Source: Gammaproteobacteria bacterium (lineage in GTDB: Bacteria > Pseudomonadota > Gammaproteobacteria > UBA6429 > Thiohalophilaceae). From it: a stretch of DNA of 37,518 nt. A program made the translations under genes and the position numbers. The stretch's first letter is position 1; every line of letters begins with the position of its first letter. Positions 737 to 27,828 of this stretch are shown piece after piece. The notes under the pieces are model-generated. The model was given only the letters and a program-made list of their open reading frames with translations. It ran no database searches and was not told the origin of the DNA. Location of the stretch: the NCBI GenBank assembly GCA_003233255.1, contig QILH01000084.1, positions 1-37,518 of the forward strand, in the 5' to 3' direction.

Positions 737-1861
737 ATGAAAAAGGTGCTTATCATTTTAGGAACGCGGCCGGAGGCAATCAAGTTTGCCCCGGTTATTC
801 ACAAACTCAACGAATACTCGGAACAATTTGAAACGGCTGTCTGTTCGACCGGTCAACACAGTGAAATGTTATATCAAGTGGTCGATTATTTTGATCTCAA
901 ACTTGATTATGATCTAAAACTGATGAAAACGGGTCAGACCTTATCCGGGCTCACTTCTGCATTGGCCTCCAGATTGTCTGATGTCATCGATGAGTTTGGG
1001 CCTGATATTATTCTTGTTCAAGGCGATACAACAACGGCCTTTATGGGTGCCCTGATTGGTTACTATCATCAGATAAAGGTAGGGCATGTCGAAGCAGGTT
1101 TAAGAACGGATAACAAATTTGCTCCTTTCCCTGAAGAAATGAATCGACGCCTGGCGGGTGTGTTAACGGATTACCATTTTGCACCTACGGATAAGGCCAG
1201 AAATGCTCTCTTGAAAGAAGGTGTAGATCCATCAACTATAAATCTATCCGGTAATACGGTTATTGACGCATTATTGTATACACTTGCGAAAAACAAACTT
1301 GCTCAGCCTTCGTTGGATGAGTTAGAAAAAGTCCTTGATCAAGGCCGGAAAATTGTTTTAATTACAGGTCACCGCAGAGAAAATTTTGGCGACGGGTTTT
1401 ATAGCATATGCAATGCAATACGTGAGCTTGCGGATACGTTTCCTGAAGTAAATTTCATTTATCCGGTTCACTTAAATCCAAATGTACAAAAACCTGTTTA
1501 TGAAATACTGGGGGATCATGACAACATATATCTTGTTCCGCCGATGGGTTACGTCAGTTTCGTGCGATTAATGAATGAGTCGCATATCGTATTGACAGAT
1601 TCGGGTGGTATACAGGAAGAAGCCCCATCACTTGGAAAACCTGTGCTCGTCATGCGAGATGAGACTGAGCGTCAGGAAGCAGTTGATGCGGGAACGGCTA
1701 TTCTTGTGGGCACGGATAAAGACAAAATCATCTATGAAGTTTCACGCCTGTTAACGAACGATGAAGCCTGGAATACAATGAGCAGTATTACGAATCCATT
1801 TGGGGATGGCAATTCTGCCCAACGCATCGTTGATTTTTTGATTAAAGTGCTGGATGACTGA
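737..1861 (+). CDS. wecB: UDP-N-acetylglucosamine 2-epimerase (non-hydrolysing)
   Basis: MKKVLIILGTRPEAIKFAPVI, GHVEAGLRT, PEEMNRR, TGHRRENFG, LTDSGGIQEEAPSLGKPVLVMRDETERQEAV motifs of the WecB family. Confidence 0.95.
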   Translation: MKKVLIILGTRPEAIKFAPVIHKLNEYSEQFETAVCSTGQHSEMLYQVVDYFDLKLDYDLKLMKTGQTLSGLTSALASRLSDVIDEFGPDIILVQGDTTTAFMGALIGYYHQIKVGHVEAGLRTDNKFAPFPEEMNRRLAGVLTDYHFAPTDKARNALLKEGVDPSTINLSGNTVIDALLYTLAKNKLAQPSLDELEKVLDQGRKIVLITGHRRENFGDGFYSICNAIRELADTFPEVNFIYPVHLNPNVQKPVYEILGDHDNIYLVPPMGYVSFVRLMNESHIVLTDSGGIQEEAPSLGKPVLVMRDETERQEAVDAGTAILVGTDKDKIIYEVSRLLTNDEAWNTMSSITNPFGDGNSAQRIVDFLIKVLDD

Positions 1862-3033
1862 TGAGTGACAATCTGCAGAGCAGCGATTATGAACTGGTTG
1901 TGTTTTCTGACGACTGGCATGGATTACCGTTTAGTTGTAAACATCTACTCAAACACTTTGCACCGGAAACGCCAATCATTTGGGTTGAGACTATTGGGCT
2001 TCGATCACCCGGTCTGAATCTCTATGATATAAAACGAGCTTTCCAGAAAATATCCGGTTGGTTAAAAAAGCCGGATCGGGATGAACGGCCGCTTCCTAAA
2101 AATGTACGATTGCTTGATCCATTTCAAATTCCTTATAATCATTTTAAGTTTGTACGTGACATTAATAAAAGAAATTTAATTAAGTCTGTTAACCGTATCT
2201 CTCGTCGTTCACCGTCTACCCGGCGGGTAATATTAACAACCTGGCCATTTTTAGGTAATCTAATAGGTTGTCTGGACGAAGATCTTAGTATTTATTATCG
2301 TGTGGATGATTTTTCTGAATTTCCTGGAGTGCGAAAAGATTACATACTGGAACTCGAACAGGAAACCATTAAGCGTTCAGATTTGATCGTCGCATCAGCC
2401 GAAAAACTTGCTGATGTAGAAAATAAACGCGGCCTGGTTAAGTATCTTCCTCATGGCGTGGATTACGAACATTTTGCTTCGGGTATGGAGCGCGATGGAT
2501 CACCCGATCCATTTGCGGGTATTTCTTCTCCCCGAATTGGCTTTTTTGGTCTATTAAATTCCTGGCTGGATCTGGAGCTTGTTTGTGAGGTAGCAAAAAA
2601 CAATCCCCAATGGTCGTTTATTATGCTGGGGCCATCGCAGCTTCCTGAGTCGGAACTGCCAAAAGCCGATAATTTATATTATCCAGGTGCCGTTCCCTAT
2701 GAGGCATTACCGGTGCAGGCTTCATTCTTTGATGTGGCACTCATACCATTTCAAATAAATAAATTAACATTGGCGGTTAACCCATTGAAGTTACTTGAAT
2801 ATTTTGCACTCGGATTACCCGTTGTCAGTACCCCGCTGCCTGAGGTCGTTAAGTATGGCAAACAGGTTAATATCGGTTCGGATCTGGAATCGTTAACGAA
2901 TGCAATAAAAAATGCTCTGGGGAGCACAAAAGAACAGGCTAATCAGCGTAAAAGTGTTGCTGAAGCAAGTAGCTGGAAGGCGAAGGCAGGCGAATTACAA
3001 AACTGGATAGAAACCGCTTTAAACAATAAATAA
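1861..3033 (+). CDS. Glycosyltransferase (GT-B, group 1-like)
   Basis: IYYRVDDFSEFPG, LIVASAEKLADV, YLPHGVDYEHF, IGFFGLLNSWLDLELV, NPLKLLEYFALGLPVVSTPLPEV are typical of GT-B transferases. Abuts the wecB stop. Confidence 0.85.
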   Translation: MSDNLQSSDYELVVFSDDWHGLPFSCKHLLKHFAPETPIIWVETIGLRSPGLNLYDIKRAFQKISGWLKKPDRDERPLPKNVRLLDPFQIPYNHFKFVRDINKRNLIKSVNRISRRSPSTRRVILTTWPFLGNLIGCLDEDLSIYYRVDDFSEFPGVRKDYILELEQETIKRSDLIVASAEKLADVENKRGLVKYLPHGVDYEHFASGMERDGSPDPFAGISSPRIGFFGLLNSWLDLELVCEVAKNNPQWSFIMLGPSQLPESELPKADNLYYPGAVPYEALPVQASFFDVALIPFQINKLTLAVNPLKLLEYFALGLPVVSTPLPEVVKYGKQVNIGSDLESLTNAIKNALGSTKEQANQRKSVAEASSWKAKAGELQNWIETALNNK

Positions 3034-3034
3034 T

Positions 3035-3059
3035 GTGTTGTTTATTTGTATAAACACAC
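3035..3059 (+). terminator. Possible stem-loop after the wecB-GT operon
   Basis: GTGTTGTTTAT-TTGT-ATAAACACAC pairs with one bulge; no clear U-tract follows. Confidence 0.3.
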
Positions 3060-3290
3060 TAATATAGTAGGGAACTATGGGGATATAGCTTTTTGGTCAG
3101 AAAATATAACGTACTGTCGCTAATTGGGAATACGGTGCTATATATTTTCTAAACTTTGCCGATAAAACTCTAAGAGAGTAGGAGAAGAAAGACAATATAC
3201 GGATATAACGGCGTTTTAGAATAATTTGGCAGTATCATCAGGGAGTCTTGTTACCCTGGGGGTGTCAGGTTGATTTTAGGTTGATGGTTT

Positions 3291-4280
3291 ATGCTCAAAA
3301 CGAATGTTTTGTTAACAATAGATGTTGAATTTTCGATAGGTGGACATTTTCAGTTTCCTACGAATAAACCTGTTCCTGCAGATCGTATTATTTATTGCAA
3401 AATAAATGGTAAGGAATACGGAATTAACCTGATCATGGACATACTCGATGATTACGGCATGAAAGGGATATTTTTTGTTGAGACCGAATCACGCTTCTAC
3501 TTTGGCGAAAGTGTCGTTGCAGATATCGCCAATCATATACAATCACGAGGACATGAAGTCCAGTTGCATACGCACCCAAACTTCCGAACGTTTATCGATG
3601 GCAAAGTGAAGCTTGATGATATGCGAAAATATTCGCTATCCGAACAAACCCAAATCATTAATGATGGACGAACATTCCTGCAGACACACGGAATTAACAA
3701 TATATCGGCGCATCGAAGCGGTGGTTTTCATAGCAACCAGGACACAATTGAGGCGCAGGTAAACAGCGGCTTAAAGTTCAGCTCAAATTATAATATTGCT
3801 TATCCAAATTGCAGTTACATTGAACGATATCCTTGTCGCAATGATATTTTTCAGGTTGATAAAATTATCGAAGTCCCCGTCACCTGTTATAAAGAATTTA
3901 AAATGCATAAGGAATGGAACTGTTTTCAATTAAGCGCCGCATCGTTTAGCGAAATAAAAGAAGCATTAAACTTCTATCATGACAATGGCACACAGGTGAT
4001 TACGTTTCTCACCCACTCCTTTGAGTTTGTCGAGAAAGGCAATGTTCAATATGCCAATAGTAGGCCATTAAAATATTTAATAAAACGGTTTTCAAATATT
4101 TGTAATTATCTGGAAAAAAATCAGGATAAATTTGAAGTAGTGACCTTCGCTGATCTGGAAAAAAACATGGATTCAGAGCAGTTTGAATTTTGCCAATCGA
4201 CCAGCGCCTATTGCAAAAGCTCATTTGTAGACACAAGCTTTCGTTATCTTGAGAATATTTTCCAGTTTGCCCGACCTTAG
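3291..4280 (+). CDS. Polysaccharide deacetylase-like (NodB homology) protein
   Basis: LLTIDVEF, GIFFVETESRFYFG, GHEVQLHTHPN (HxxxH-type metal site), SAHRSGGFHSNQDTIEA. Confidence 0.8.
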   Translation: MLKTNVLLTIDVEFSIGGHFQFPTNKPVPADRIIYCKINGKEYGINLIMDILDDYGMKGIFFVETESRFYFGESVVADIANHIQSRGHEVQLHTHPNFRTFIDGKVKLDDMRKYSLSEQTQIINDGRTFLQTHGINNISAHRSGGFHSNQDTIEAQVNSGLKFSSNYNIAYPNCSYIERYPCRNDIFQVDKIIEVPVTCYKEFKMHKEWNCFQLSAASFSEIKEALNFYHDNGTQVITFLTHSFEFVEKGNVQYANSRPLKYLIKRFSNICNYLEKNQDKFEVVTFADLEKNMDSEQFEFCQSTSAYCKSSFVDTSFRYLENIFQFARP

Positions 4281-5135: not shown

Positions 5136-8100
5136 ATGGTCAATAATCAAACAAAACAGTGTATTTTATTGGGGAGTAAATCCCTGCTGATCCAGTGCGC
5201 AACCTACCTGCAGGACAATAATTTTAAAATTGTCGCAGTGGTTACAGATGATTCGGTCATTTCGAACTGGGCGAGCGGCGAGTCGATTAAAATAGTGAGT
5301 TATGGATCTTACAATGAAATATTAAATCTTACTAAAATAGATTATATCTTCAGTATCACTAATCTGCGTATCGTTCCGGAATCGATACTAAAATTAGCTA
5401 ACAAAGCGGCAATCAATTTTCACGATGGGCCATTACCGGGCTACGCCGGATTAAATGTTACCACCTGGGCGCTGGCTAATCAGGAAACGAAACACGCGGT
5501 TACCTGGCATGAAATGTTGGCTGAAGTTGATACAGGACGTCTATACAAAACGGAATCAATAGACATTGATGACAGGGAAACCGCGTTCACCTTAAATGCA
5601 AAATGTTATGAGGTTGCGTTAAACTTGTTCAAACAAATTGTAAATGACATTAATGCCGACAATTTACAAAGTGTTGCTCAGGATTCAGGCGAGAGCCATT
5701 TTTACGCAAAATGTCATCGTATGCCGGCGGTAGAGATTTTAGATTGGCAACGAACCGCGAGTGAGCTGGACGCCATGGTTCGTGCGCTTGATTATGGGCC
5801 ATATGAAAATCCACTTGGAGTCGCTAAATTAGTAGTACATGACCAGGTTACATATGTGAAAGAGGTAAGTGTTGCGGATATGACATCCTTACCGGCGGGT
5901 GAATGCCTTATTCAGGACGCGCAGATATTTATTGGTTGTGCCACGGGTGCTGTTAAGTTAGAGAAGATCATATCTTTAAATGGCGAGCCGTTAGCATCAG
6001 ATGAATTTATAGAAATATCAGGCCTAAAATCAGGCGAGTTACTCTCGCCGCCGGATAAAAATATCATACCCGTTATCTCGGAGTTGGATCATCATTATTG
6101 TAAAAACGAAAGCGCAATCCTTAGCGCTCTTGTTCGTTTCAAAGCACCTGAAATTCCCTACGCTAAAACTGTTCAGGATGCTGAAGGCGAGATACAGATC
6201 GGATTTAAAAAACAAAAACTGTCATCAAAGGCTGAGAAAGCGGTTGAAAAATTTACAAATAAATACGATGTATGTGCTTTATTTGCTGTATACGTATTTA
6301 AGATTTCAGCAATGGATTCATTTGGGCTTGGTGTCAATCTGGAACGTAAAAAATCAATAGCGGACTTATTGTTTGCTTCGACGGGGCCGATTGTTATTGA
6401 TGTTGATGGCCAGGAAAAATTAAATAACTTTATTAAAGCGAAATCTGAATTAATAGAGCAAGTCGTTACACGAGGGGGGGTTCTAACAGAAATTTCTTTG
6501 TGTCGGCCAGAGCTGAACGGTGTCGTTCCTGACTTCCCACTTCAAATTACTAATGTACCTTCGATAGAAAGCTACCAGCCGGAATCGATTAATGGACTTC
6601 GGTTTGTTACCGACGATAGTAATAATATTGCCTGGATATATGATGCACGCATATATGATGAAGACAACATTACTGCGATGCAATCTCAGTTTGATAATTT
6701 GCTGCAACAAATTGAAGGTGATGACAGCAAGGCTATAGCAGAATACGGTTTGATATCGGAAATAGAGTTAGATAAATTACTGAATCAATGGAATAAAACC
6801 GATTTAGAAATGCCGGCAAACAAATGTGTCCATCAATTATTTGAAGAGCAGGTTAGAAGTCAGCCGGATTCAATTGCTGTTTCATTCTCTGGTCATACCA
6901 GTACTTATCGGGAGTTGAATAACCGGGCCAATCAAATAGCCAATTATCTAATCGAACTTGGCGTTAAACCTGACCGGCTCGTTGGTGTTCTGGTTGACCG
7001 CTCGATCGACATGATTGCGGCGATGTTAGGGGTATTGAAATCTGGCGGCGCGTATTTACCTCTGGATCCAACGTATCCCAAAGAACGCATCAGTTACATG
7101 CTGGAAGATGCCGATGTCTCGGCTGTTATTAGTCAGTCTGATCACTCCGCCTATCTGTTAGGAGTGGAAGCACCTGCATTATATCTGGATACGGATGATG
7201 GCCTTATCCGTCAACAGCCTGAGCATCTTGATTCTACAACGGTTGCTCCAACGCACCTTGCTTATACTATATATACCTCAGGTTCAACAGGTAAACCCAA
7301 AGGGGTCATGGTTGAGCATAGGAATGTAATTAATTTCTTTTCTGGTATGGATCAACAGCTCGGTACTCAAAAAGGTGTCTGGCTGGCGGTAACCAGTATT
7401 TCATTTGATATTTCGGTTCTTGAGTTATTCTGGACGTTGGCGAATGGATTTGAAATCGCTTTATACGCAGATCAGGAACGCAAGGTATCAAAGAAAGTTA
7501 AGACTCGATACCCGGATCAGGACATGCAGTTCAGCCTGTTTTACTGGAATGTTGCCGACGATGAATCTGATTACGATGAAGATAAGTACAATCTGTTAAT
7601 TGAAAGCGCAAAATTTGGCGATAGAAATAATTTTAAAGCCGTATGGACTCCTGAGCGACATTTTCATGCCTTTGGCGGGCTGTATCCTAATCCATCTATT
7701 ACCAGTGCGGCACTTGCTACTATTACAACGCAGATTGAAATTCGGGCGGGTAGTTGCGTGGCACCATTACATCACCCAATAAGAATTGCTGAAGAATGGG
7801 CAATGGTTGATAATTTGTCACATGGTCGGGTTGGAATGGCTGTTGCCGCAGGTTGGCAGCCCAATGACTTTGTCATTATGCCAGATAATCATGCCGACGC
7901 TAAAAACATCATGTTTGAAACGGTTGAAACAGTAAAAAAATTATGGCGAGGGGAGACCCTGGAGTTTCCTGGGCCTAAAGGAAATATGGTTAAAGTCAGG
8001 ACTCTACCACGGCCTGTGCAAAAGGAATTACCGATATGGGTTACAACTGCAGGAAATCCAGAAACATTTCGTCAAGCAGGCGAGGTTGGTGCGTATATTT

Positions 8101-9812
8101 TAACTCACCTGCTTGGTCAGTCGGTTGATGACGTTGCTAAAAATATCGATGTGTATCGCCAGGCATATAAAGGCGCGGGCCATGAGGGTGATGGGCATGT
8201 GACATTACTGCTCCACACGTTAGTGGGGTCTGATGAAGGGAAAGTGCGTGAATTAGCGCGTGAACCGATGAAGAACTACCTTAAAAGTGCAGTGTTTTTA
8301 GTGAAAGCGGCGGCATGGCACTTTCCTACGTTTAAAACCATGTCAGAAGAGCGGGGTCAAACACTGGATCAAATTTTTGACAACATGGGCGAAGAAGATC
8401 TAGATGGTTTGTTAGAGTTTGCTTTCGAACGGTATTATTCTACCAGCGGTTTATTCGGAACGCCTGAGCGGTGTGTTGAACTGGTCGATAGATTAAAAGA
8501 AATCGGGGTTAATGAAATTGGATGTTTGATAGATTATGGGCTGGATACTCAGAATGTTCTTGCGCATTTGCCCAACCTGAATGACTTACGCAAAGCTTCA
8601 ATAAAGCAAGACCATCAGCAAGCAGAGGAAACGAAAGAGCTGTCAATAGCCGATATTATTTCGAGTCGACAGGTTTCTCATTTGCAATGTACTCCTTCCA
8701 TGGCGAGCATGCTGGTATCAGAGGACGCCTCCGCAAACGGACTCAAGAAAATAAAACATATGATGGTGGGCGGTGAAGCTTTCCCTCCGAGCCTGGCGAG
8801 CAAATTACGCCAATTAATAAATGGTCGTGTTACAAATATGTATGGGCCTACTGAAACAACTATTTGGTCATCTACGTATGATGTTCCTGAAGGGGAAACG
8901 TCAATAAGCATCGGGAAACCAATTGCCAATACGCAAATGTATATCCTTGATCAATACATGCAACCTGTCCCTGTGGGAATTCCCGGTGAATTATATATTG
9001 GTGGAGATAGCGTTGTTCGTGGTTATCATGCTCGCGAAGACATTACGGCCGAACGCTTTGTAAAAAACCCCTTTAGCAATAAAGTGGGGGCCCGTATATA
9101 TAAAACGGGTGATCTGGTGAAGTATCGGGAAGATGGCTCATTAGAATATATTAGCAGAATTGATAATCAGGTTAAGATTCGAGGTTACCGAATCGAGTTA
9201 GGAGAAATTGAATCGCTGTTACAGTCTCATTCGTCAATTTCTGAAGCGATAGTATTGTTGCGTGAAGACATTGAAAATGACAAACGTCTGGTTGCCTATA
9301 TTAAATTAGCGGAAAATGAAGTTTTTGATACAAATGTAATAAAAGGCTATTTAAAGAATGATTTGCCTGAATTTATGGTGCCGGGTATTTTTGTTGAGAT
9401 CACAGCGATGCCGCTTACTCCTAATGGGAAGGTTGATCGAAAGGCATTACCGCCTCCGGAACAGGAGCTAAAAAGCACCAGTAACAAAAAATATGTTCAA
9501 CCGGAAAATGACCTGCAAAAATCCATAGCCACTATATGGCAAGATATTTTAGGTCTTGCTCAAGTAGGCCTGGAAGATAATTTCTTTGACATTGGCGGGC
9601 ATTCATTACTGGTTGTTCAAGTGCTGGACAAACTTAGAACCGCAACCGACGTTCAGGTAAAGATGATAGATATGTTCAGGTTTCCTACTATCAGCTCATT
9701 GAGCAAATACCTTGGTCAGACCGATGATGCTGGAAATAAACTCGATGAAAGTAAAGGGCGAGCAGAAGCGCGAAAATCTGCCATGTTGAAACGAAGAAAA
9801 AGCAGAAAATAG
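5136..9812 (+). CDS. NRPS loading module: formyltransferase - degenerate C-like region - adenylation (glycine-type) with inserted luciferase-like monooxygenase - thiolation
   Basis: F domain: INFHDGPLPGYAGLNVTTWAL...VDTG. A domain: YTIYTSGSTGKPKG, SFDISVLE, NMYGPTETTIW, YKTGDLVKYREDGSLEYISRIDNQVKIRGYRIELGEIE, PLTPNGKVDRKAL. LLM insert: MQFSLFYWNVADDES...VWTPERHFHAFGGLYPNPSITSAALATITTQIEIRAGSCVAPLHHPIRIAEEWAMVDNLSHGRVGMAVAAGWQPNDF. T domain: NFFDIGGHSLLVV. Confidence 0.95.
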   Translation: MVNNQTKQCILLGSKSLLIQCATYLQDNNFKIVAVVTDDSVISNWASGESIKIVSYGSYNEILNLTKIDYIFSITNLRIVPESILKLANKAAINFHDGPLPGYAGLNVTTWALANQETKHAVTWHEMLAEVDTGRLYKTESIDIDDRETAFTLNAKCYEVALNLFKQIVNDINADNLQSVAQDSGESHFYAKCHRMPAVEILDWQRTASELDAMVRALDYGPYENPLGVAKLVVHDQVTYVKEVSVADMTSLPAGECLIQDAQIFIGCATGAVKLEKIISLNGEPLASDEFIEISGLKSGELLSPPDKNIIPVISELDHHYCKNESAILSALVRFKAPEIPYAKTVQDAEGEIQIGFKKQKLSSKAEKAVEKFTNKYDVCALFAVYVFKISAMDSFGLGVNLERKKSIADLLFASTGPIVIDVDGQEKLNNFIKAKSELIEQVVTRGGVLTEISLCRPELNGVVPDFPLQITNVPSIESYQPESINGLRFVTDDSNNIAWIYDARIYDEDNITAMQSQFDNLLQQIEGDDSKAIAEYGLISEIELDKLLNQWNKTDLEMPANKCVHQLFEEQVRSQPDSIAVSFSGHTSTYRELNNRANQIANYLIELGVKPDRLVGVLVDRSIDMIAAMLGVLKSGGAYLPLDPTYPKERISYMLEDADVSAVISQSDHSAYLLGVEAPALYLDTDDGLIRQQPEHLDSTTVAPTHLAYTIYTSGSTGKPKGVMVEHRNVINFFSGMDQQLGTQKGVWLAVTSISFDISVLELFWTLANGFEIALYADQERKVSKKVKTRYPDQDMQFSLFYWNVADDESDYDEDKYNLLIESAKFGDRNNFKAVWTPERHFHAFGGLYPNPSITSAALATITTQIEIRAGSCVAPLHHPIRIAEEWAMVDNLSHGRVGMAVAAGWQPNDFVIMPDNHADAKNIMFETVETVKKLWRGETLEFPGPKGNMVKVRTLPRPVQKELPIWVTTAGNPETFRQAGEVGAYILTHLLGQSVDDVAKNIDVYRQAYKGAGHEGDGHVTLLLHTLVGSDEGKVRELAREPMKNYLKSAVFLVKAAAWHFPTFKTMSEERGQTLDQIFDNMGEEDLDGLLEFAFERYYSTSGLFGTPERCVELVDRLKEIGVNEIGCLIDYGLDTQNVLAHLPNLNDLRKASIKQDHQQAEETKELSIADIISSRQVSHLQCTPSMASMLVSEDASANGLKKIKHMMVGGEAFPPSLASKLRQLINGRVTNMYGPTETTIWSSTYDVPEGETSISIGKPIANTQMYILDQYMQPVPVGIPGELYIGGDSVVRGYHAREDITAERFVKNPFSNKVGARIYKTGDLVKYREDGSLEYISRIDNQVKIRGYRIELGEIESLLQSHSSISEAIVLLREDIENDKRLVAYIKLAENEVFDTNVIKGYLKNDLPEFMVPGIFVEITAMPLTPNGKVDRKALPPPEQELKSTSNKKYVQPENDLQKSIATIWQDILGLAQVGLEDNFFDIGGHSLLVVQVLDKLRTATDVQVKMIDMFRFPTISSLSKYLGQTDDAGNKLDESKGRAEARKSAMLKRRKSRK
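7515..8600 (+). other. Luciferase-like monooxygenase domain embedded in the A domain between core motifs A4 and A5
   Basis: Flanked by SFDISVLELFWTLANGFEIALYADQE (A4) and LSIADIISSRQVSHLQCTPSM...NMYGPTETT (A5). The second A domain in this window (ORF ending 18647) runs through the same point without an insert. Confidence 0.9.
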
Positions 9813-9814
9813 AA

Positions 9815-12800
9815 GTGACTAACAAAAATAATATTGAATTTGAAGAAACTGATATTGCCGTAATAGGTATGGCTGCACGGTTTCCCGGTGCGAATAACGT
9901 CGATCAGTATTGGGATAATTTACGTAATGGAGTTGAAGTCTTTACTGAATTTACGGATGAGGTGTTATTAGAAAAGGGCGTGCCGCTCGATCTGATTAAT
10001 AATCCCAATTACGTCAAGATAGGCCGCCCGCTGGATAAAATGGAAATGTTTGATGCCCCTCTGTTTGGTTTTACACCAAAAGATGCGTCAATTATGGATC
10101 CACAACATCGCCACTTTTTAGAGGTTGCATGGGAAGCACTTGAGCATGCAGGTTATGATCCCGAACGCTATGAAGGTGCGATTGGTGTTTTCGGTGGTTC
10201 CGGACATAACGCCTACATGCCCTATAATTTATTATCCAACCCTGAGCTTATGAATTCGGTTGGATTGTTTTTAGTTCGTCACACATCGAATGATAAAGAT
10301 TTTTTAACGACCAGAGTTTCATATTGCTTAAATCTACGGGGGCCTAGTGTCAATGTGCAAACCGCATGTTCCACATCGCTGGTAGCGACGCACCTTGGGT
10401 TTCAGTCACTGATCAGTGGCGAGTGTGATATAGCTCTGGCCGGTGGCGTAACGATTGAGTTGCCGCATAATGTTGGTTACCTGTATAAAGACGGTGAGAT
10501 TCTATCACCAGACGGGCATTGTCGAGCCTTTGATGAGAATTCTAAAGGAACCGTTTTTGGCAGTGGTGCCGGGCTGGTCGTTTTGAAGCGCGCTGAAGAT
10601 GCATTAAATGATGGCGATACGATTCATGCAATCATAAAAGCAACGGCTGTGAATAATGACGGTTCCAATAAAGTAGGTTACCTTGCACCAAGTGTTGAAG
10701 GTCAGTCAGCTGCAATCACCGAGGCATTAAGCTTGTCGGGTGTTGATGCGGACAGTATAAGCTATATAGAGACGCATGGCACGGGAACCCCGGTCGGCGA
10801 CCCTATTGAAATTACCGCACTTACCGACGCATTTAGGACGCAAACAAAGGCGTCGGGGTTTTGTGCAATCGGTTCTGTAAAAACGAATATTGGTCACCTT
10901 GATACCGCTGCGGGGGTTGCCGGTCTTATTAAAGTTATTCAATCATTAAAGAACAAAGAATTACCTCCCTCTTTGAATTATAAAGCACCTAACCCCAGTA
11001 TTGAATTTAATGACACCCCTTTTTATGTAAACAATAAACTTAAGAACTGGGATACAAATGGCGGTCTACGCCGTGCAGCCATTAACTCGCTTGGAGTAGG
11101 TGGGACGAACGCACATGTTATTCTGGAAGAAGCTCCTGAATTTGATCGAACTCACGCCTCAAGATCATATCAGACTCTTTGCTTGTCTGCCCGGACTAAG
11201 CCGGCTTTAGATGTTCTTTCGAAAAATCTGGGTGACTATTTTAATATGCATCCTGATATTTCTTTGGCCGATGCAGCTTATACATTGCGTGTTGGCAGGA
11301 AATTGCAGGCTTTTCGAAGAACTTTAGTCTGTGACACAGCCAAAGATGCGGCAGAGACTCTGTTAGAGTTGCCGCATAACCGGATATCAACATTACGCAA
11401 TACTTCTAGCACTCCCTCCATCGTGTTTATGTTTACTGGCCAGGGTTCACAGTACGTCAATATGGGAAAGGCATTATATGAATCTGAGCCGGTGTTTAGA
11501 GAAGCATTGGATGAATGTGCGGCAGGTTTGCGAACTTATCTTGATACAGGATTGCTTGAATTATTATTTCCGGATGCGGCCAGGGAAGAGGAAGCACAGC
11601 AACAACTCCAACAGACTCAGTATACTCAGCCCGCTTTGTTTTCAATCGAATATTCTCTCGCTAAACAGCTGTTACATTGGGGAATCAAACCTGATGCAAT
11701 GATCGGCCATAGTATTGGGGAATACGTTGCCGCTTGCTTATCAGGTGTTTTTGGGTTAAATGATGCCCTAAAGCTGGTGGCTAACCGTGGACGCCTAATG
11801 CAAGGACTTCCCGGTGGCTCAATGTTAGCTATTTCTTTGAGTCAGGATGAAGTGCAGCAATATATTAATAATAAAGTATCACTTGCCGCAGTTAATTCTC
11901 CCGGATTGTGCGTTTTATCTGGAGATCATGAAAGTATCGATAAGTTGCAAGCTAGTCTGGAAGCAAAAGAAGTAAATTGCAGACGGTTATTAACCTCGCA
12001 TGCATTCCATTCAGCTATGATGGTACCCATTCTTGATGAGTTCAAAGGAATTGTAAGTTCGCTAGCTATTTCTGCTCCAACCATTCCGTTTGTTTCAAAT
12101 TTTACAGGTAAATTTATTACGGATGAGCAGGTCGTGGATCCTGGTTACTGGGCCGATCATTTAAGATATACAGTGCAGTTTACGGACGGACTTGACGAGC
12201 TATACAAAGATTCTGAGCGAGTATTTATTGAAGTGGGTCCCGGAAATACACTGTCATCCCTGGCAAAACAACACCAGTCTAAACTTGATACCCACTTGAT
12301 TTATAATTTAATAAGACATCCAAAGGAAAAAAACAACGATGTCCAATACTTATTTTCTGCTATAGGTGATTTATGGATGGCAGGCATAAATCTTGATTGG
12401 TCTGCAATTGAAAAAAATGAAGTCAGAAGAAGAATCCCGCTCCCGAGTTATCCATTTGAACATCAGTATCACTGGATCGAGCCGGGTATTGGTGCAATAG
12501 ATGTAAATATTTCTAGTACGATGCACAAACAAAAAATGGGTAAGTGGTTATACATCCCATCCTGGATTAAAACAGCACCAGCAGGTATCCAGGGGGTATC
12601 AGATACTGATAAAACCATTCTCGTGTTTGTAAATGATAATGAGTTTATTGGTTCGCTTTTAGAACGATTTAAATCAATCGACGGTACGCTTATTGAAATC
12701 AGAGGTGCGGGTGGGTTTAAAAAGCATTCTAGCAACTCATATGAAATCAAGCCAGGCTCTGAAACAGATATGTCCGAACTGTTTTCATCGTTGAATAATG

Positions 12801-15397
12801 ATGGCGTTAAGGTAACACACATTATCCATAGCTGGTTGCTGGATGAGGATGTGCAAGCGTCCATGAATAACTATAAGCACGAACAGGAATTCGGTTTTTA
12901 TACGCTACTGGCTCTTTCGAAAACATTAGCCAACCTGGAAATGGATGATGAGTTGTTAGTTACAGTGCTGGTGAATCAGATGCAGCAAGTAACTAATGAG
13001 GTTGTTGGTCATCCGGCTAAAGCAACACTAATTGGCCCTGTAAAGGTGATGTCGCAGGAAATTAATAACGTTACCGCTAAATATTGCGACATTAATCTTA
13101 ATGCGTTGAAGCCGTGGGAAAAAGAGAGTTTGTTAAATAATCTTTTTGTTGAAACCTTAGTAGATGACGGGGATGAGGAAATATCATACCGTGGTAATTC
13201 ACGTTTTATTAGAGAGTACAGCTCGGTAAAAGTTGATAATCACGAAGAGCTTGTTCTTTTACCGTCCAGGCTTAAAAATAATGGAACTTATTTGATTACT
13301 GGCGGGATCGGTGGGCTGGGTGCGGTGTTGGCCAAACATTTTGCTTCAATAGCGAATGTAAATATTGTTTTAGCTAGTAGAACAAGTTTACCGATCAAAA
13401 CGGACTGGGATAAGTGGTTGGATGAACACGAACCCTCAAATAGTATTTCTTTGCGTATTGAATCGATAAAAGAGATTGAGTCACTCGGTTCCAGGGTTGA
13501 GGCTATAACAGCAGACGTTACCGATGTCGGACAGATGAAAGCTTTGGTAAAACAGTGCCATAAAGAATTTGGTGCTATTAATGGTGTTTTTCATACCGCT
13601 GGAATAGTCAAAGATAATTTGATTGCATTGAAATCTTTTGATGATGCACGAGCTGTGCTTGCGCCTAAACTTGATGGATTAGTCGTTCTCGATGAAGTTC
13701 TAAAGAATGAATCACTCGATTTTATGGTGCTATTTTCTTCATTAGCATCCTTTATAGGGCTTAGTGGGCAAATTGATTACACTGCGGCGAATGCTTTTCT
13801 TGATGCGTACGCCCACCACAAACGAGGTATTGATGGTACACCAGTATCGTCAATAAACTGGGGCGTATGGGCGGATGTTGGAATGGCAGCGACCCTTGCC
13901 AGTGATTTGGGCATTGGGTCTAGTAAACTTATAGTTGATGATATAGAACATTATTTTTTTGAAAAACATCAGAATGTAACAACAGGTGTTGATGAATATA
14001 CTGCAAAATTAAGTACAGCAAAACATTGGCTGCTTGATGGTCACAGAAACAAAAATGGTGTTTCTCTTGTGCCAGGCACGGCTTATCTAGAAATGGCCAG
14101 ATCAGCATTTAATCTGGATAATGTTTCTAAGGCAATAGAATTAAGTGATGTATTTTTTGTTTCTCCTTTTGTTGTTGAAGGCGATGAAGAAAAAGAAATA
14201 AGAGTCAGGTTAAATAAAACAGCACATAATTCGGGATTTGTAATTCAAAGCGAGTATGGTGAAGAAAATGTCCGGGGAATCATACGATATATCGATGATA
14301 AAGCGGGTGCGAATTTAAGTTTAGATGCGATAAAGGAGCGTTGCAATGTCTCTAAGGAGCAGCGGCAGGGTACAGCCGATCATAACCACCTTAATTTCGG
14401 TCCACAATGGAAATGTATAAATAATATATTTTTCGGAAAAAAAGAAGCATTAGTTGAAATAGAAATAGCCGACGAATTTGAATCCGAACTTGATGATTAT
14501 ATTCTTCACCCGGCTGTTATGGATATGGCTACGGGTACCGCTCAGTCTTTGAATCCAGACTATGATGCTGAAAATGATTTATATATTCCTATTTCATATA
14601 CTCGGATAAAAGTATTCAAGCCTCTAGAGAAAAAAATGTACAGCCATGTGGTTTACGGTGCTGATGAGGGGGCGGGTGGACAAACTTCAATATTTGATAT
14701 TACGATATCCAATGTTGATGGTGAGATTCTTGTTGCTATCGAAAATTTTGTAATGAAACGAATTTCACCATCTGTATTGTTATCTATTAAATCAAGCAGG
14801 CCGGCCGATGTGATCGAGGTTGAGCATAAATCAGCTAGCGAGCGCTTTTTTGAGTCGGGGGTGTTAGCGGGAATGACGTCCGAAGAGGGAATGAAAGTTG
14901 TAGATTATGTATTGTCTAATTTACCCTCTGAGCCGCAGGTCATAGTCTCAACCCTTAATCTTGCAGAATTCATAAATGAGGCACGGAAATTACGAACGAT
15001 TGATGAATTAGAAGATGACACTCTGGATGAGGACTTGCTTATTACACAAGAGAGGCCGAATCTAAGTGTTGAATATGTTGAGCCAGAAACCAGGCTAGAA
15101 AAAGATATCGAGAGTGTCTGGAGAGTTGTTTTAGGAATTAGCAATATAGGTCTTGACGATGACTTCTTTGAATTAGGCGGACATTCTTTATTGCTAACGC
15201 AGACTGTATCTCGCTTGCGTAAAAAATTAAAAATGGAACTTCCGATTTCCAGTTTATTTGAAACACCAACGATAAAAGAATGGGCGATTGTTTTGTCTGA
15301 CGAATCGGTAGTTTCGGGTGAAATAATTCCGTCAGTGATTCCGGTCGTGCGTGAAAAATATCTTTCAAAGCGATCAATGATTAATGCGGCAGCATAA
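9815..15397 (+). CDS. Type I PKS module, KS-AT(malonyl-type)-KR-DH-ACP
   Basis: KS: NVQTACSTSLVATH, ETHGTGTPVGDP, KTNIGHLDTAAG. AT: FTGQGSQYVNMG, GHSIGEY, HAFH. KR: TYLITGGIGGLGAVLAKHFA, FHTAGIVKDNLI, SSLASFIGLSGQIDYTAANAF. DH-like: KHWLLDGHRNKNGVSLVPGTAYLEM, LHPAVMDMATG. ACP: DDFFELGGHSLLLTQ. GTG start. Confidence 0.95.
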   Translation: MTNKNNIEFEETDIAVIGMAARFPGANNVDQYWDNLRNGVEVFTEFTDEVLLEKGVPLDLINNPNYVKIGRPLDKMEMFDAPLFGFTPKDASIMDPQHRHFLEVAWEALEHAGYDPERYEGAIGVFGGSGHNAYMPYNLLSNPELMNSVGLFLVRHTSNDKDFLTTRVSYCLNLRGPSVNVQTACSTSLVATHLGFQSLISGECDIALAGGVTIELPHNVGYLYKDGEILSPDGHCRAFDENSKGTVFGSGAGLVVLKRAEDALNDGDTIHAIIKATAVNNDGSNKVGYLAPSVEGQSAAITEALSLSGVDADSISYIETHGTGTPVGDPIEITALTDAFRTQTKASGFCAIGSVKTNIGHLDTAAGVAGLIKVIQSLKNKELPPSLNYKAPNPSIEFNDTPFYVNNKLKNWDTNGGLRRAAINSLGVGGTNAHVILEEAPEFDRTHASRSYQTLCLSARTKPALDVLSKNLGDYFNMHPDISLADAAYTLRVGRKLQAFRRTLVCDTAKDAAETLLELPHNRISTLRNTSSTPSIVFMFTGQGSQYVNMGKALYESEPVFREALDECAAGLRTYLDTGLLELLFPDAAREEEAQQQLQQTQYTQPALFSIEYSLAKQLLHWGIKPDAMIGHSIGEYVAACLSGVFGLNDALKLVANRGRLMQGLPGGSMLAISLSQDEVQQYINNKVSLAAVNSPGLCVLSGDHESIDKLQASLEAKEVNCRRLLTSHAFHSAMMVPILDEFKGIVSSLAISAPTIPFVSNFTGKFITDEQVVDPGYWADHLRYTVQFTDGLDELYKDSERVFIEVGPGNTLSSLAKQHQSKLDTHLIYNLIRHPKEKNNDVQYLFSAIGDLWMAGINLDWSAIEKNEVRRRIPLPSYPFEHQYHWIEPGIGAIDVNISSTMHKQKMGKWLYIPSWIKTAPAGIQGVSDTDKTILVFVNDNEFIGSLLERFKSIDGTLIEIRGAGGFKKHSSNSYEIKPGSETDMSELFSSLNNDGVKVTHIIHSWLLDEDVQASMNNYKHEQEFGFYTLLALSKTLANLEMDDELLVTVLVNQMQQVTNEVVGHPAKATLIGPVKVMSQEINNVTAKYCDINLNALKPWEKESLLNNLFVETLVDDGDEEISYRGNSRFIREYSSVKVDNHEELVLLPSRLKNNGTYLITGGIGGLGAVLAKHFASIANVNIVLASRTSLPIKTDWDKWLDEHEPSNSISLRIESIKEIESLGSRVEAITADVTDVGQMKALVKQCHKEFGAINGVFHTAGIVKDNLIALKSFDDARAVLAPKLDGLVVLDEVLKNESLDFMVLFSSLASFIGLSGQIDYTAANAFLDAYAHHKRGIDGTPVSSINWGVWADVGMAATLASDLGIGSSKLIVDDIEHYFFEKHQNVTTGVDEYTAKLSTAKHWLLDGHRNKNGVSLVPGTAYLEMARSAFNLDNVSKAIELSDVFFVSPFVVEGDEEKEIRVRLNKTAHNSGFVIQSEYGEENVRGIIRYIDDKAGANLSLDAIKERCNVSKEQRQGTADHNHLNFGPQWKCINNIFFGKKEALVEIEIADEFESELDDYILHPAVMDMATGTAQSLNPDYDAENDLYIPISYTRIKVFKPLEKKMYSHVVYGADEGAGGQTSIFDITISNVDGEILVAIENFVMKRISPSVLLSIKSSRPADVIEVEHKSASERFFESGVLAGMTSEEGMKVVDYVLSNLPSEPQVIVSTLNLAEFINEARKLRTIDELEDDTLDEDLLITQERPNLSVEYVEPETRLEKDIESVWRVVLGISNIGLDDDFFELGGHSLLLTQTVSRLRKKLKMELPISSLFETPTIKEWAIVLSDESVVSGEIIPSVIPVVREKYLSKRSMINAAA

Positions 15398-15416
15398 AGG
15401 TACATATCAGGTAACT

Positions 15417-18400
15417 ATGCATACAAAATCAGAATTAAAGAACGAGTTCGGAAATCCGGACGAAGAAGTTTATGTTTTCCCGACAACTTACCCGCAGAAG
15501 CAACTCTGGTTTTTAAATCAGATGTCGCCAGATAGCCCTGCGTACAATATACCGTTTGCATACGATATTATTGGTATCCTGGATACTGATGCGCTTCGTG
15601 ATGCAATAAATGAAATTATAAGACGTCATGAAACCTTCAGAACAACATTTTCCGATAATGAAACTGGGCCAGTGCAATTAGTCTCGAAATTATTAAAAAT
15701 TGATATACCTGTTATAGATATGTCAGGTAAAGATGAAGCTGCGATAAAGGAATACATTCATACGAATTCTATTAGACCTTTTCAGCTTGAATCGGGGCCG
15801 CTCATTAGGGCTGAGTTAATCAAGCAGGATGAAAAGTATTTTATTCTATTTTTAAACTTCCATCATATAATTCTTGATCATATATCAATTGTGCAGTTTG
15901 CAGAGGAGCTCGAAAAATTATATGGGGCTTATAAAGAAAACAAATCGACGCCGCTTGTTGAGCCTGAATTACAATATGCGGACTATACGGTATGGCAAGA
16001 GTGTTGGCAGTCACATGAAAAACTGGAACCGAAATTAAGTTTCTGGAATGAGCTTTTAACGGATAGAAGTGATTACCTGGATATTTCCACTGACTTTAAG
16101 CGTCCATCAATCCAGAAAATGAATGGAAGAGAATATAACCTGTGGTTTCCAGCTTCATTGTTAGATAAGCTCAAAAAACTAAGTCGTTCAGAAAGTGTTT
16201 CAATGTTTATTGCACTTTTGGCGGGATTCTCGATCATATTAAGTCGTTATACATCTCAGAATGAAATATCGGTGGGAACCCCTTTTGCTAATCGAGGAAT
16301 CCAGCCTGAATTAGAAAAAGTCATGGGATGTTTTATAAATACAGTGCCGATTTTTATGGATCTAGAGGGTGATCCAAGTTTCCGAGATGTACTTGCTCGT
16401 GTACGCAAAGTGGTTTTTGGTGCGAATGCCCATCAGGAAGTGCCCTTCGAGATGATTGTAGAGTCTATTAAACCTAAACGTGAGACAAGTTATAATCCGT
16501 TATTTCAGGTGGGGTTTACTTTCCAGGAACCGCCGATGGAAATATTTTTATCAGATTGTAAAGTTAAGTCGCAGCGTCTTCATAATGATGCGGCAAAATT
16601 TGATATTTTAGCATGGCTATGGGAATCGGAAGATGGAATACGAGGCTTGTTAGAATACAGCACCGATCTATTTGAATATGAAACGATCGAAAGATTTGCT
16701 AGTCATTATCAGGTGTTATTAGAGTCTGCCGTTGAGCAACCTGATGCTCCGATCTCACAGCTTCGTGCTATTTCAAAGAAAGAACGGGATCTTATGATCG
16801 ATCTATGGAATGACACGACGAGAGATTTTAAGGACAGTACAGGAATTCATGGTTGTTTTGAGGAGCAGGTTCGTAATTTTGAATCCAAATCGGCAGTAGA
16901 ATGTGAAGGGGTAAGTTTAAGTTATTTAGAACTAAATAATCGATCGAATCAGCTTGCTAACTATCTTATTGAATTAGGCGTAAATTCGGGTGATTTTATC
17001 GCGGTCAGCTTGAAACGTTCTGCTGATATGTTGGTGGCTATATTAGGTATTTTAAAATCTGGAGCGTGTTATATTCCTTTAGATCCTGAATATCCAGATG
17101 AACGACTGTTTTATATGCTTGATGACTCTGGATCTAAATACCTTTTACTACAGGATCATCTGCTTGAGCAATATGCAAAATATACCGGAAAAAAAATAAG
17201 TATAGATGGTGATTGGAATAAAATAAAAGAACAGGATATTACTTCTCCATGTGTCAAAATAAAGGCATCAGATCTTGCCTATATAATTTACACCTCAGGC
17301 TCAACAGGAAAACCTAAAGGTGTAATGGTGCCTCATCATGCGGCCGTTAATTTTCTAAAAAGTATGGCGGTTGAGCCTGGGTTGACCGAACAAGATAAAT
17401 TGTTGGCGGTGACCACGCTGTCATTTGATATTGCGGTGCTTGAATTGTACTTACCGCTAACTGTTGGCGGCACTGTAGTCATAGCTACGGCTGAAGAGGC
17501 TTCCGATGGTGATGATTTGGCAGAACTTATTACTGAAAATAACATTACCGTTATGCAAGCAACTCCTGCAACCTGGCGTCTTTTATTTTCTTCAAGATGG
17601 AAGGGGAATTCGTCTCTAAAAGCACTGTGTGGCGGTGAAGCCATGCCATCAGATCTGGTTGGTGATCTTCTGGTTCATGTTGGGGAGCTTTGGAATATGT
17701 ATGGGCCAACTGAAACCACAGTATGGTCAACGTGTTATAAGGTAACAGATCCTGATGCGCCGATTTTAATCGGAAAACCCATCAATAATACAAAAATATA
17801 TATTTTGGATAAACATTTGAAGCCTGTTCCAATGGGGGTGCCAGGTGAGATGTTTATTGGTGGTGATGGAGTCACTAGCGGTTATTTGAATATGGATGAG
17901 CTAACAACAGAACGGTTTATTCCTAACCCCTTTGATAGTGATAATCGTATTTATCGCACTGGCGATATAGTTAGACATAAAGCCGATGGAAATATTGAGT
18001 ATCAGAGAAGAGTGGACAATCAGGTAAAAGTCCGAGGTTTTCGGATTGAACTGGGTGAGATTGAAACGGTTCTATTAAAACAGTCTAACATCAGTCAGGC
18101 GGTAGTTGTCGTAAGAGAGGATACGCCGGGCGATCCACGTTTAGTTGCTTATTATATTCCTGATGCGGATAGCAGTATTACGGCTACAGAAATGAGGAAA
18201 TCCCTTCGTCAGGAATTGCCAGATTATATGATTCCTCAACACATGGTGGAGATGGAAGAATTTCCACTAACCCCCAATGGGAAGGTTGACAAAAAGGCGT
18301 TTCCTTCTCCGTTTATCAGCTCCACGGTTGATAATGAAATTGTTGTACCGCGAGATTTTGCTGAGAAAAAATTGGCAGCCATCTGGAATGAGTATTTGGG

Positions 18401-18647
18401 GTTTGGTATAGAAAATATAAGTATTTACGATAACTTTTTTGATCGTGGCGGACACTCATTGCTATCAATGCAAGTGATAGCCAAAATACGCGAATTAACG
18501 GGTACAAAATTAAATCCCCGAGTAATGATTTTAAGCACGCTTGAACATATAGCGCCGCAATGTGGATTTATAGAAACGCAGACAGAAAAAACTGAAAAAT
18601 CTCGCGGCTTTTTCTCGATGCTATCGAGCCTGTTTACGAAAAAATAA
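15417..18647 (+). CDS. NRPS extension module C-A(glycine-type)-T, no thioesterase or reductase
   Basis: C: [121 protein letters not shown]; ends [14 protein letters not shown]. The track starts at 15384 (GTG/alternative, overlapping the PKS stop); ATG at 15417 preferred. Confidence 0.93.
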   Translation: [1076 protein letters not shown]

Positions 18648-18740: not shown

Positions 18741-19505
18741 ATGAATCCTATGTTTTTTGGTCAGTCTGTGTCCCCATTGTTTGGTGTATACCACCCCCCT
18801 ATAGGAGGCTCTTTTTTAAATAAAGCGGTTTTGGTTTGCAGTCCTATAGCTCAGGAACATAATCGAAGCTATAAACCCATTCGCAATTTTGCCAAACTGT
18901 TATCGAACAAAGGTTATCATGTCTTAAGGTTCGATTTTTCAGGCGTGGGTGATTCTTTTGGTGATTTGAGGGAGCTTAAATTCACCGACTGGTTAGAAGA
19001 TGTTAGTTTGGCATATAACGAACTGGTTGACATTTCCGGAGTAAAGAAGGTTAGTGTTTTTGGGGTCAGATTAGGCGGAACTCTCGCTGTGTTGTCAGAT
19101 AAATATGAATCGATGGAAAAAGTTGTATTATGGGAGCCCATCCAAAAAGGTGGAGATTATGTCGTCGAAATGAAAAACATGCACCAACAAATGCTAGTAG
19201 ATGAAATGAGATTTAATGCGCCCAGAGATGCTGCCGATTCGTATGAAAACGAAATGCTTGGGCATATTTACAATAAAGAACTGATTAATGAGTTGTCAAG
19301 TGTCCAGCTCGACATTACTGCTATGCATAAAAAGGATATGGAGCTGCATTCAAATAGTGAAAATTTACCAGTATCAACCAAAAAAAGTAAGAACAAGAGT
19401 ACAGTGTATTTGCGTTACGAAGATGATGCATGGACTGATGTTAAAAGAATAGGGGACATGTTACTAACAAGTGCTGCTTTAACTAATATTGCTGATGAGT
19501 TTTAA
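18741..19505 (+). CDS. Alpha/beta-hydrolase-fold protein resembling exosortase A-associated hydrolase 2; nucleophile elbow GVRLGG
   Basis: AVLVCSPIAQEHNRSYKPIRNFAKLLSNKGYHVLRFDFSGVGDSFGDL; VFGVRLGGTLA lacks Ser at the elbow. Confidence 0.75.
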   Translation: MNPMFFGQSVSPLFGVYHPPIGGSFLNKAVLVCSPIAQEHNRSYKPIRNFAKLLSNKGYHVLRFDFSGVGDSFGDLRELKFTDWLEDVSLAYNELVDISGVKKVSVFGVRLGGTLAVLSDKYESMEKVVLWEPIQKGGDYVVEMKNMHQQMLVDEMRFNAPRDAADSYENEMLGHIYNKELINELSSVQLDITAMHKKDMELHSNSENLPVSTKKSKNKSTVYLRYEDDAWTDVKRIGDMLLTSAALTNIADEF

Positions 19506-19508
19506 GAT

Positions 19509-20348
19509 ATGAATGAAAAAATTATCATCATGGGCGAAAAAAAGAATCTGGTCGGAATTCTAAGTGACGCTGAAAATTCGGGGGGTGCCTGTTCACGTCC
19601 CTCGGTTTTGTTTTTAAATTCTGGTCTGGTTCACCGGCCAGGCCCATTCAGGATGAATGTTGATCTTTCGCGGCAATTAGCCAGCATTGGCTTTGATGTT
19701 TTACGCATGGATATTTCTGGTGTAGGTGATAGTGAAATCCCCGCAAACGATAGTCGTTCTTATGAACAAAGAAATCTTGATGATATTGGAGAAGGGATCA
19801 GGTATCTTGCGGCTCAAAATACTCACGGAGTCATTGTGATGGGTTTATGCACCGGGGCGGATCATGCGCATAAAGCAGCATCTAAGTATTCTGAGGTTGT
19901 TGGAACGATTTTATTTGATGCGTACGGATACCCAACTTTAAAATTCTATCTTAAACGATATGGCCCTATATTATTCAGCCCCAAAAGAGTAATCAATATT
20001 GTTATTAAAGTACTTAAAAAAATATTTAGAGTAAGCACATCTACTTCCAGTTCGGGTGGTGGTGCTGATGCTTATTTTTGGAAACTTCCTCCTGAGCAAG
20101 ACTATATGAAAGATATGGAAAACCTGGATAAGCGAAATGTAAAGCAGTGTTATATCTACTCAGGTGGCGTGTCTGATTACTACAATTATAAGGATCAATT
20201 TAAGGATAAATTCGGTTCTAGCCCGATTGCCAGAGGAATTACCGTTAAATACCACGAGCAGGCAGATCATATATACAGCCTGAGGAAAGACAGAGAGAAA
20301 ATGTTTGAAGAAGTTAAAAGCTGGATCAGCAAGAACTTCGGAACATGA
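19509..20348 (+). CDS. Alpha/beta-hydrolase resembling exosortase A-associated hydrolase 1; nucleophile elbow GLCTGA
   Basis: SVLFLNSGLVHRPGPFRMNVDLSRQLASIGFDVLRMDISGVGDSE; VMGLCTGADHA (Cys at elbow); YSGGVSDYYNYKDQF; QADHIYSL (candidate His). Starts 3 nt after the previous stop. Confidence 0.78.
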   Translation: MNEKIIIMGEKKNLVGILSDAENSGGACSRPSVLFLNSGLVHRPGPFRMNVDLSRQLASIGFDVLRMDISGVGDSEIPANDSRSYEQRNLDDIGEGIRYLAAQNTHGVIVMGLCTGADHAHKAASKYSEVVGTILFDAYGYPTLKFYLKRYGPILFSPKRVINIVIKVLKKIFRVSTSTSSSGGGADAYFWKLPPEQDYMKDMENLDKRNVKQCYIYSGGVSDYYNYKDQFKDKFGSSPIARGITVKYHEQADHIYSLRKDREKMFEEVKSWISKNFGT

Positions 20349-22529: not shown

Positions 22530-23004
22530 TTTTCAGGAGATTATTATTGGTCAGTTTCTTGATGGCTTTTTCAACGCGGGGATATGTACCGCATCGACAT
22601 AAAACTTTCGACATGGCATTGATTACTTCTTCATCACTCGGGTTCGGTGTTTTTAGAAATAATGAGGCAGCCATCATTATTTGTCCGGGTTGACAATAGC
22701 CACACTGTGAGACCTGTTCATCTATCCAGGCTTGTTGGATAGGATGAATTTGCTGGTTGCTGAGGCCTTCTATTGTTGTGATTTTTTTAGTCAAAATTTG
22801 CTCAATGGGGAGTAGGCAGGAAAACTGAGGTGAGTCATCGATAATGACAATACAGGCTCCACAATCGCCGTTACCACAACCATATTTAGTGCCGGTTAAG
22901 CCAACATGATCTCGTAGTACCCACAACAATGGCGTGTCCGGGGTAACTGAGACGGTATATTGTTTTGAATTTACAGTAATAGTGTATGTTTTTAAACTGG
23001 CCAT
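22522..23004 (-). CDS. 2Fe-2S subunit of molybdenum hydroxylase (IorA-like)
   Basis: GCGNGDCGACIVIIDD, CGYCQPGQIMMAASLFL, LCRCGTYPRVEKAIKKL. Overlaps the large-subunit start by 8 nt. Confidence 0.93.
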   Translation of the reverse strand: MASLKTYTITVNSKQYTVSVTPDTPLLWVLRDHVGLTGTKYGCGNGDCGACIVIIDDSPQFSCLLPIEQILTKKITTIEGLSNQQIHPIQQAWIDEQVSQCGYCQPGQIMMAASLFLKTPNPSDEEVINAMSKVLCRCGTYPRVEKAIKKLTNNNLLKND

Positions 23005-23371
23005 ATTGAATGAAAACTACTAAAGGTTGTTTTGAATGCCGCTAGTATAAATCTGATCGGTTGACTTATTCAATTACTGTTTAGTTATATTTTCAATAGT
23101 GTACTTTAGTGATTTCTAATGTTTATAACAGAGTAAATCATAGGGTGTTTTATGACTATGACACTCTAATTTATATATCGAGCAACATCTATGTATACAT
23201 CATTATTTATCTATGATTGATGTGATAGATCTGGATTCTCAATTGCAAAATTATTTATTGGCATTGGAAGTGTTTATAATGGACAAGACGTATAGTACAG
23301 GCCAGAAAAAGGCAGGGAAAATCTGTTTTATGTTATTTGTAGAAGGAAAAAATAGATGAGTTATTTCGAAA

Positions 23372-24328: not shown

Positions 24329-24341
24329 TACCGCGGACGAT

Positions 24342-24990: not shown

Positions 24991-25632
24991 CTATAAAAAA
25001 GCACAGGAATAGATGTGTCTTTGGGTTATATTAAACCGTATATTGAGCTCAGGAATTTGTTGTCTGGAGTTCATGGAGAGCGTGGCCGTATTCGAGTCAA
25101 GATTCGGGCATATTGAATAAGCCTGGAACCCCATTTTACTTTTGCTGACGGGATACATGCACTTATAAATAGATTCTTTAATGCTAAAAATGAGCAATAT
25201 TAAAACTTTTTGAAACGCTCTTTCCTGTTCGCATATCCATTCCCGCTCTTCCCCCGTACAAACAAACCTGGCTATATCTTCACGAAAAACTTTTATATTT
25301 TCTATATCAAATCCTATTGAGATTAGTTTGCCCGATCTGGCCAATACGGCGCCACCAAAATCTTTACAGTGGGTGATGCTTCCAATAATCCCTGTGGGCC
25401 AAACAGGTTCTCGCTCTGCTCCAGATAGAATAGAATCGACTGTGACGTCAAGTAGCGTTAATGTTTTTTTTGCGCAAAATCGACCAGTAGAAAATTCATT
25501 TTTTCGTTTTTCACTGGCCGTGCAGATGATTTTTAATTCTGCAGGGTGTAAATGATGGGTGTAATCAGCGATAGGAAGAATCGTGCCTAGCACCTCATCA
25601 GGAAATAAGGAAGAAATGAGTTTTGAAGACAT
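24991..25632 (-). CDS. 4'-phosphopantetheinyl transferase (EntD-type)
   Basis: KRKNEFSTGRFCAKKTL, EPVWPTGIIGSITHCKDFGGAVLA, SIGFDIENI, FSIKESIYKCMYP. Confidence 0.92.
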   Translation of the reverse strand: MSSKLISSLFPDEVLGTILPIADYTHHLHPAELKIICTASEKRKNEFSTGRFCAKKTLTLLDVTVDSILSGAEREPVWPTGIIGSITHCKDFGGAVLARSGKLISIGFDIENIKVFREDIARFVCTGEEREWICEQERAFQKVLILLIFSIKESIYKCMYPVSKSKMGFQAYSICPNLDSNTATLSMNSRQQIPELNIRFNITQRHIYSCAFL

Positions 25633-27320: not shown

Positions 27321-27602
27321 TATAATTGCTCATAGCCGCTATATGATTAATTCTACAGGAATTATACCTGATTTGAAGGGCATGGGCTCCACAAAAACTA
27401 CATAGAATGCTTATTGCCTGCCTCGGTGAGTTGTGAATGGACATTCAACCTGGATTGCTTTATTTAATGGCTGATTTGGAAGATTTAACTACAGGTTCCA
27501 GATTTTTACAATTCATTATTTCATTGTGATGGTTTGTATCGAATGAGAATTGATTAGTTATTAAATTAGGTGCAGGTTGTGAATGGTCTTTTAGTTTTCA
27601 GG

Positions 27603-27614
27603 TAGCCGCGGCTA
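27603..27614. repeat. Perfect 12-bp palindrome TAGCCGCGGCTA in intergenic region
   Basis: Read directly; may be chance. Confidence 0.4.
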
Positions 27615-27781
27615 TACATCTGGGTGCTTATGCAAAATCACCAGACTGGATTAATTCAGTATTAGCGTGTTCGAGATTCTACCGATGGCTACGACTTTGG
27701 TTGATAATCAGGTGACTTGCTTAAGTAGACATAAACCATGTCTATCGAAGTTCAGATATTTATTTAACGCGGTTACATGAA

Positions 27782-27810: not shown

Positions 27811-27828
27811 GGTAATTTTTCGAACAAC

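Follow-up and report, generated by a model that had tools for sequence, protein, structure and literature searches.

Two coupled genes, hyd2 and hyd1, that directly follow an NRPS-PKS assembly line quite probably constitute a module for the offloading or acyl transfer of chains bound to carrier proteins. They are located in the window, the whole 37,518-nucleotide stretch of DNA analysed here (contig QILH01000084.1, Gammaproteobacteria, Thiohalophilaceae). The initial annotation had proposed such a general role, and this is supported by related pairs that lie behind NRPS/PKS genes (72/87), by 20 hyd2 fusions, by the gene order ACP-hyd2-hyd1 in exosortase-type loci and by fused pairs in aaRS-type operons. 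The same pair is found at the same spot in dozens of unrelated bacteria, and therefore probably serves to detach the completed chain or to pass it on. The relevant genes of the window are as follows:

737..4280, + strand: glycan genes encoding a UDP-GlcNAc 2-epimerase (wecB), a glycosyltransferase and a polysaccharide deacetylase (Pfam/NCBIfam)
5136..9812, + strand: NRPS loading protein with a formyltransferase-like domain, an A domain interrupted by a MupA/Atu3671-type luciferase-like monooxygenase, and a PCP (Pfam/NCBIfam)
9815..15397, + strand: type I PKS module, KS-AT-KR-DH-ACP (Pfam, annotation)
15384..18647, + strand: terminal NRPS module, C-A-PCP (Pfam)
18741-19505, + strand: hyd2, 254 aa ORF, alpha/beta-hydrolase fold (TIGR03101, 97.4 bits, under the cut-off)
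19509-20348, + strand: hyd1, 279 aa ORF, alpha/beta-hydrolase (TIGR03100, 60.3 bits, under the cut-off)
24991..25632, - strand: 4'-phosphopantetheinyl transferase (Pfam 4PPT_N/ACPS)

The two hydrolase ORFs are separated by 3 bp and are transcribed on the same strand as the upstream NRPS-PKS-NRPS line, whose loading protein has the domain order F-A(LLM)A-PCP. As noted in the initial annotation, the line has no release domain: neither a TE nor a reductase (R) domain is found in it with Pfam/NCBIfam, and the last protein stops ~30 aa past its PCP, so that the pair occupies the position of a release enzyme at the end of a line without TE or R. The phosphopantetheinyl transferase likely primes the carrier domains of the line, and the glycan genes upstream of it are a possible source of an acceptor. 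Directly downstream of the pair (20364-24938) are xanthine-dehydrogenase-like molybdenum hydroxylase genes (large subunit, 2Fe-2S subunit, XdhC and MocA-like), and genes for GalE, APS kinase and siroheme synthase are situated near the cluster (25681-29965); sulfate activation so near an assembly line could reflect a sulfated product or a coincidence. A promoter and terminator scan yields no promoters above chance.

The nearest families of the pair are those of the exosortase A hydrolases, with clear homology. The best NCBIfam match of hyd2 is TIGR03101 hydr2_PEP (9.4e-28, 97.4 bits) and that of hyd1 is TIGR03100 hydr1_PEP (1.7e-16, 60.3 bits), with curated cut-offs of 202.75 bits and 168.45 bits respectively; a pair from an exosortase locus (L033) scores 236.3 bits against TIGR03101 and 356.9 bits against TIGR03100. 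Because 60 and 97 bits are far under these cut-offs, the window proteins are not exosortase equivalogs and, judged by their scores, are a sister type in the TIGR03100/TIGR03101 superfamily, whose wider hallmarks they carry (an adjacent pair with Cys-His in hyd1 and Arg in hyd2). The resemblance to exosortase hydrolases 1 and 2 noted earlier thus stands as homology but not as membership of the strict exosortase type. Neither protein matches the PF00975 thioesterase family, and their Pfam matches are weak ones of the Hydrolase_4/Abhydrolase_1 type.

Related pairs were sought in 369 genomes of the class and in 84,980 species genomes. The first search gives a high-scoring hyd1 group (109-227 bits) well separated above the rest, and the second gives 80 loci. 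The NRPS-type set contains 87 non-redundant pairs scoring at least 200 bits against a profile of the high-scoring group; it was seeded with the window hyd1, so the 87 represent one subfamily, and it includes near-copies (e.g. ten Corallococcus/Myxococcaceae rows). The pairs span at least eight phyla, with carriers in the Pseudomonadota, Myxococcota, Planctomycetota, Gemmatimonadota, Acidobacteriota, Calditrichota, Nitrospinota, Lentisphaerota and KSB1. In 72 of the 87 pairs an NRPS/PKS domain on the same strand lies no more than 600 bp upstream, compared with one of 22 lower-scoring pairs, and a PCP is directly upstream in 70. Eight further pairs have NRPS/PKS elsewhere in the stretch read (80/87 in total), and some of the seven without are at contig ends.

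In 20 pairs hyd2 is fused in cis to the synthetase (18 PCP-hyd2, one C-hyd2 and one A-hyd2), and the PCP-hyd2 fusions put hyd2 at the usual thioesterase position. Examples are C-A-PCP-hyd2 (G228, two copies), A-PCP-C-A-PCP-hyd2 (G183), C-hyd2 (G018) and A-PCP-hyd2 (G090, G332, G236, Planctomycetes), and Rhodopirellula maiorica (L155) has A-PCP-hyd2-hyd1 within one ORF. Where the genes are unfused, 12-339 bp separate the PCP from hyd2, too little for a TE domain. No PF00975 domain is present in the assembly-line proteins checked with Pfam, and PF00975 thioesterases account for two downstream neighbours in the survey. In the hyd1 tree (midpoint root; SH-aLRT as the support measure) the fused/separate label requires at least five changes, and the exosortase-type and aaRS-type proteins each form one group amid the more varied NRPS type.

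The hyd1 protein contains Cys114 within the motif GLCTG, together with His254, and both residues are invariant in the NRPS-type homologues (87/87). At the nucleophile elbow of hyd2 is Arg110 (GVRLG), and no His is conserved; this position is Arg in 85 and Gly in two of the 87 NRPS-type homologues, and Arg is also found in 22 of 22 lower-scoring proteins, mostly of the exosortase or aaRS type. Since hyd2 is without a nucleophile, hyd1 is likely to be the only catalyst of the two and is the predicted catalytic subunit; from its conservation hyd2 looks like a pseudoenzyme kept by selection. Position 137 of hyd1 (window numbering) is Asp in 76 of 88 NRPS-type proteins and mostly Asn in the other types, 21 of 26 of which carry an Asp beyond a later strand (post-beta7). 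The alignment columns point to Asp137 as the probable catalytic acid of hyd1, with the acid position differing between types; the post-beta7 Asp of the window hyd1 (GGVSDYY) was dropped as a candidate, not being conserved in the NRPS type. Loci L027, L071, L109 and L118 carry two hydrolase pairs each, and in the second, fused copy of L027 the hyd1 Cys is replaced by Ser (GISAG). Folded alone, the models have a pLDDT of 89.4 and pTM of 0.88 (hyd1) and a pLDDT of 88.5 and pTM of 0.89 (hyd2). The closest PDB folds to the pair belong to feruloyl esterases and lipases rather than to thioesterases; the alpha/beta-hydrolase DcsB is among the fold matches, and the hyd2 profile weakly matches the thioesterase entry 1tht.

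The pairing, the position, the fusions, the conservation of Cys/His and Arg and the recurrence of the same syntax elsewhere are read from the sequences, and are consistent with a split release module, formed by hyd1 and hyd2, that would serve the TE-less line. The catalytically dead hyd2 would be located at, or dock to, the terminal carrier domain and hyd1 would be recruited beside it, presumably in a physical complex. Cys114, activated by His254 and probably by Asp137, would accept the chain from the phosphopantetheine arm in a thioester exchange, and from hyd1 the chain would then be hydrolysed off, cyclised or passed to an acceptor. No biochemistry or product for any member of the pair was found in the literature searched (open-licence papers).

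Carrier proteins accompany the pair in other systems as well. Five exosortase-type loci (L032-L036) have an ACP gene directly upstream of hyd2, giving the order ACP-hyd2-hyd1, and in the operons of amino acid--[acyl-carrier-protein] ligases (e.g. Azospirillum B510 and Mycetohabitans rhizoxinica) the two hydrolases form one fused hyd2-hyd1 chain of 580-620 aa, encoded together with an ACP, an acyl-CoA dehydrogenase, a DUF1839 protein and a GH2 protein. The predicted common element is thus a carrier protein, then a dead hydrolase, then a cysteine hydrolase. The TIGR03100/TIGR03101 exosortase A hydrolases resemble the NRPS type in being paired with hyd2 ahead of hyd1, in carrying the hyd1 Cys and the hyd2 Arg, and in the ACP gene directly upstream in several loci, whereas the NRPS-type proteins score only ~60-98 bits against them, do not need an exosortase and differ in the probable acid position. 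The aaRS-type fused hydrolase shares the hyd2-hyd1 order and a carrier protein in the operon, but in these operons the only carrier protein is charged by an aaRS-like ligase, and there is no NRPS/PKS. A type I thioesterase (PF00975) likewise has an alpha/beta-hydrolase fold and ends a line after the last PCP, but the pair consists of two proteins, with a Cys where a Ser is usual, a dead partner and no PF00975 match. SurE (a PBP-type TE) and DcsB are, like the pair, encoded separately from the line, although the fold of SurE differs from that of the alpha/beta-hydrolase pair and neither SurE nor DcsB is known to have an obligate dead alpha/beta-hydrolase partner.

The window itself contains no exosortase, in agreement with the initial annotation, and a search of its own genome (70% complete) returns a sub-cut-off fragment with two stops (22.7 bits; L004, G000:C204:1655-1822), possibly a decayed or misassembled gene. 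Among congeners, an exosortase is present in G002 and G003 and none is detected in G001. Eight genomes with an NRPS-type pair have no detected exosortase (G228, G183, G090, G332, G209, G403, Corallococcus interemptor and Bradyrhizobium centrolobii), and an exosortase is not required for the NRPS-type pair. The distant TIGR03100/03101 homology and the glycan genes nearby could suggest a relic of an exosortase or EPS locus that was moved here and is functionally unlinked to the NRPS-PKS genes; this reading is highly improbable and was rejected, being contradicted by the survey, in which the pair has a subfamily of its own that follows NRPS/PKS across phyla (80/87) and occurs in several genomes without an exosortase.

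The pair is unlikely to act as a type II (editing) thioesterase, clearing misprimed carriers and not releasing the final product: stand-alone alpha/beta-hydrolases of NRPS clusters are frequently editing enzymes, but the pair lies immediately past the terminal PCP, with cis fusions at that point, the window line has no other release domain, and type II thioesterases are not known to occur strictly together with a dead partner. Esterases and lipases as the closest solved folds would also suit an enzyme that tailors or hydrolyses a released small molecule (an ester or lactone), release itself being spontaneous or catalysed elsewhere, and another enzyme could be missing from this fragmented, 70% complete MAG; the repeated fusion to a PCP and the carrier-protein adjacency in three different systems make this improbable.

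A special case of offloading, in which the pair is an acyltransferase moving the carrier-bound chain to a sugar, polysaccharide or other acceptor, is a reasonable but tentative possibility. Single-module A-PCP-hyd2 + hyd1 loci without other NRPS/PKS domains (L064, L065, L066, L105, L111, L124, L129, L153 and L155) argue for transfer, because hydrolysis of an unmodified aminoacyl-PCP would just regenerate the free amino acid, although tailoring on the carrier ahead of hydrolysis would equally escape this futile cycle. Among 101 downstream ORFs glycan genes are frequent, with ~8 matches to glycosyltransferases, 5 to polysaccharide synthesis and 5 to polysaccharide deacetylases (raw counts), a Variovorax NRPS-PPTase-pair is followed directly by a polysaccharide export locus, the window carries wecB, glycosyltransferase and deacetylase genes upstream, and the exosortase-type and aaRS-type pairs have glycan or glycosidase contexts; yet glycan genes are not evident around the NRPS-type loci of G018, G228 and G183. 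In L064 and L066 the gene directly preceding A-PCP-hyd2 looks aminotransferase-like on inspection by eye, and hyd1 is followed by a polysaccharide deacetylase gene in L065 (Pfam) and probably in L064; these neighbours hint that the amino acid may be non-standard and the acceptor a glycan. It is similarly conceivable, on comparison of the three systems, that a widespread two-subunit cysteine acyltransferase (live hyd1, dead hyd2) serves NRPS/PKS lines, aminoacyl-carrier-protein ligase operons and exosortase-A polysaccharide loci alike, passing their acyl or peptidyl chains on to glycans or other acceptors. If true, this would account for what hydrolases 1 and 2 do in exosortase loci, a role for which no explanation was found in the literature searched, and would give the exosortase-A hydrolases a function that can be tested directly.

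Assembly lines without a visible release domain are a long-standing annotation gap, and the PCP-hyd2-hyd1 signature would let genome mining call the termini of many clusters in the Myxococcota, Planctomycetota, Gemmatimonadota and Pseudomonadota. A release enzyme needing a dead paralogue for docking would also be a new handle for chain-release engineering. No description of such a pair was found in open-licence papers on exosortases, TE-less release and LLM-A domains, which is a weak indication of novelty; one founding paper on exosortases is silent on the hydrolases, and the parts seen of a review of unusual NRPS termination show no such pair.

LLM-interrupted A domains recur in other loci with the pair (L058, L081, L085, L109, L131, L138, L149 and L154), some with an N-terminal formyltransferase-like domain, which suggests a related product family, and G084 has the same rare F/LLM loading architecture as the window.
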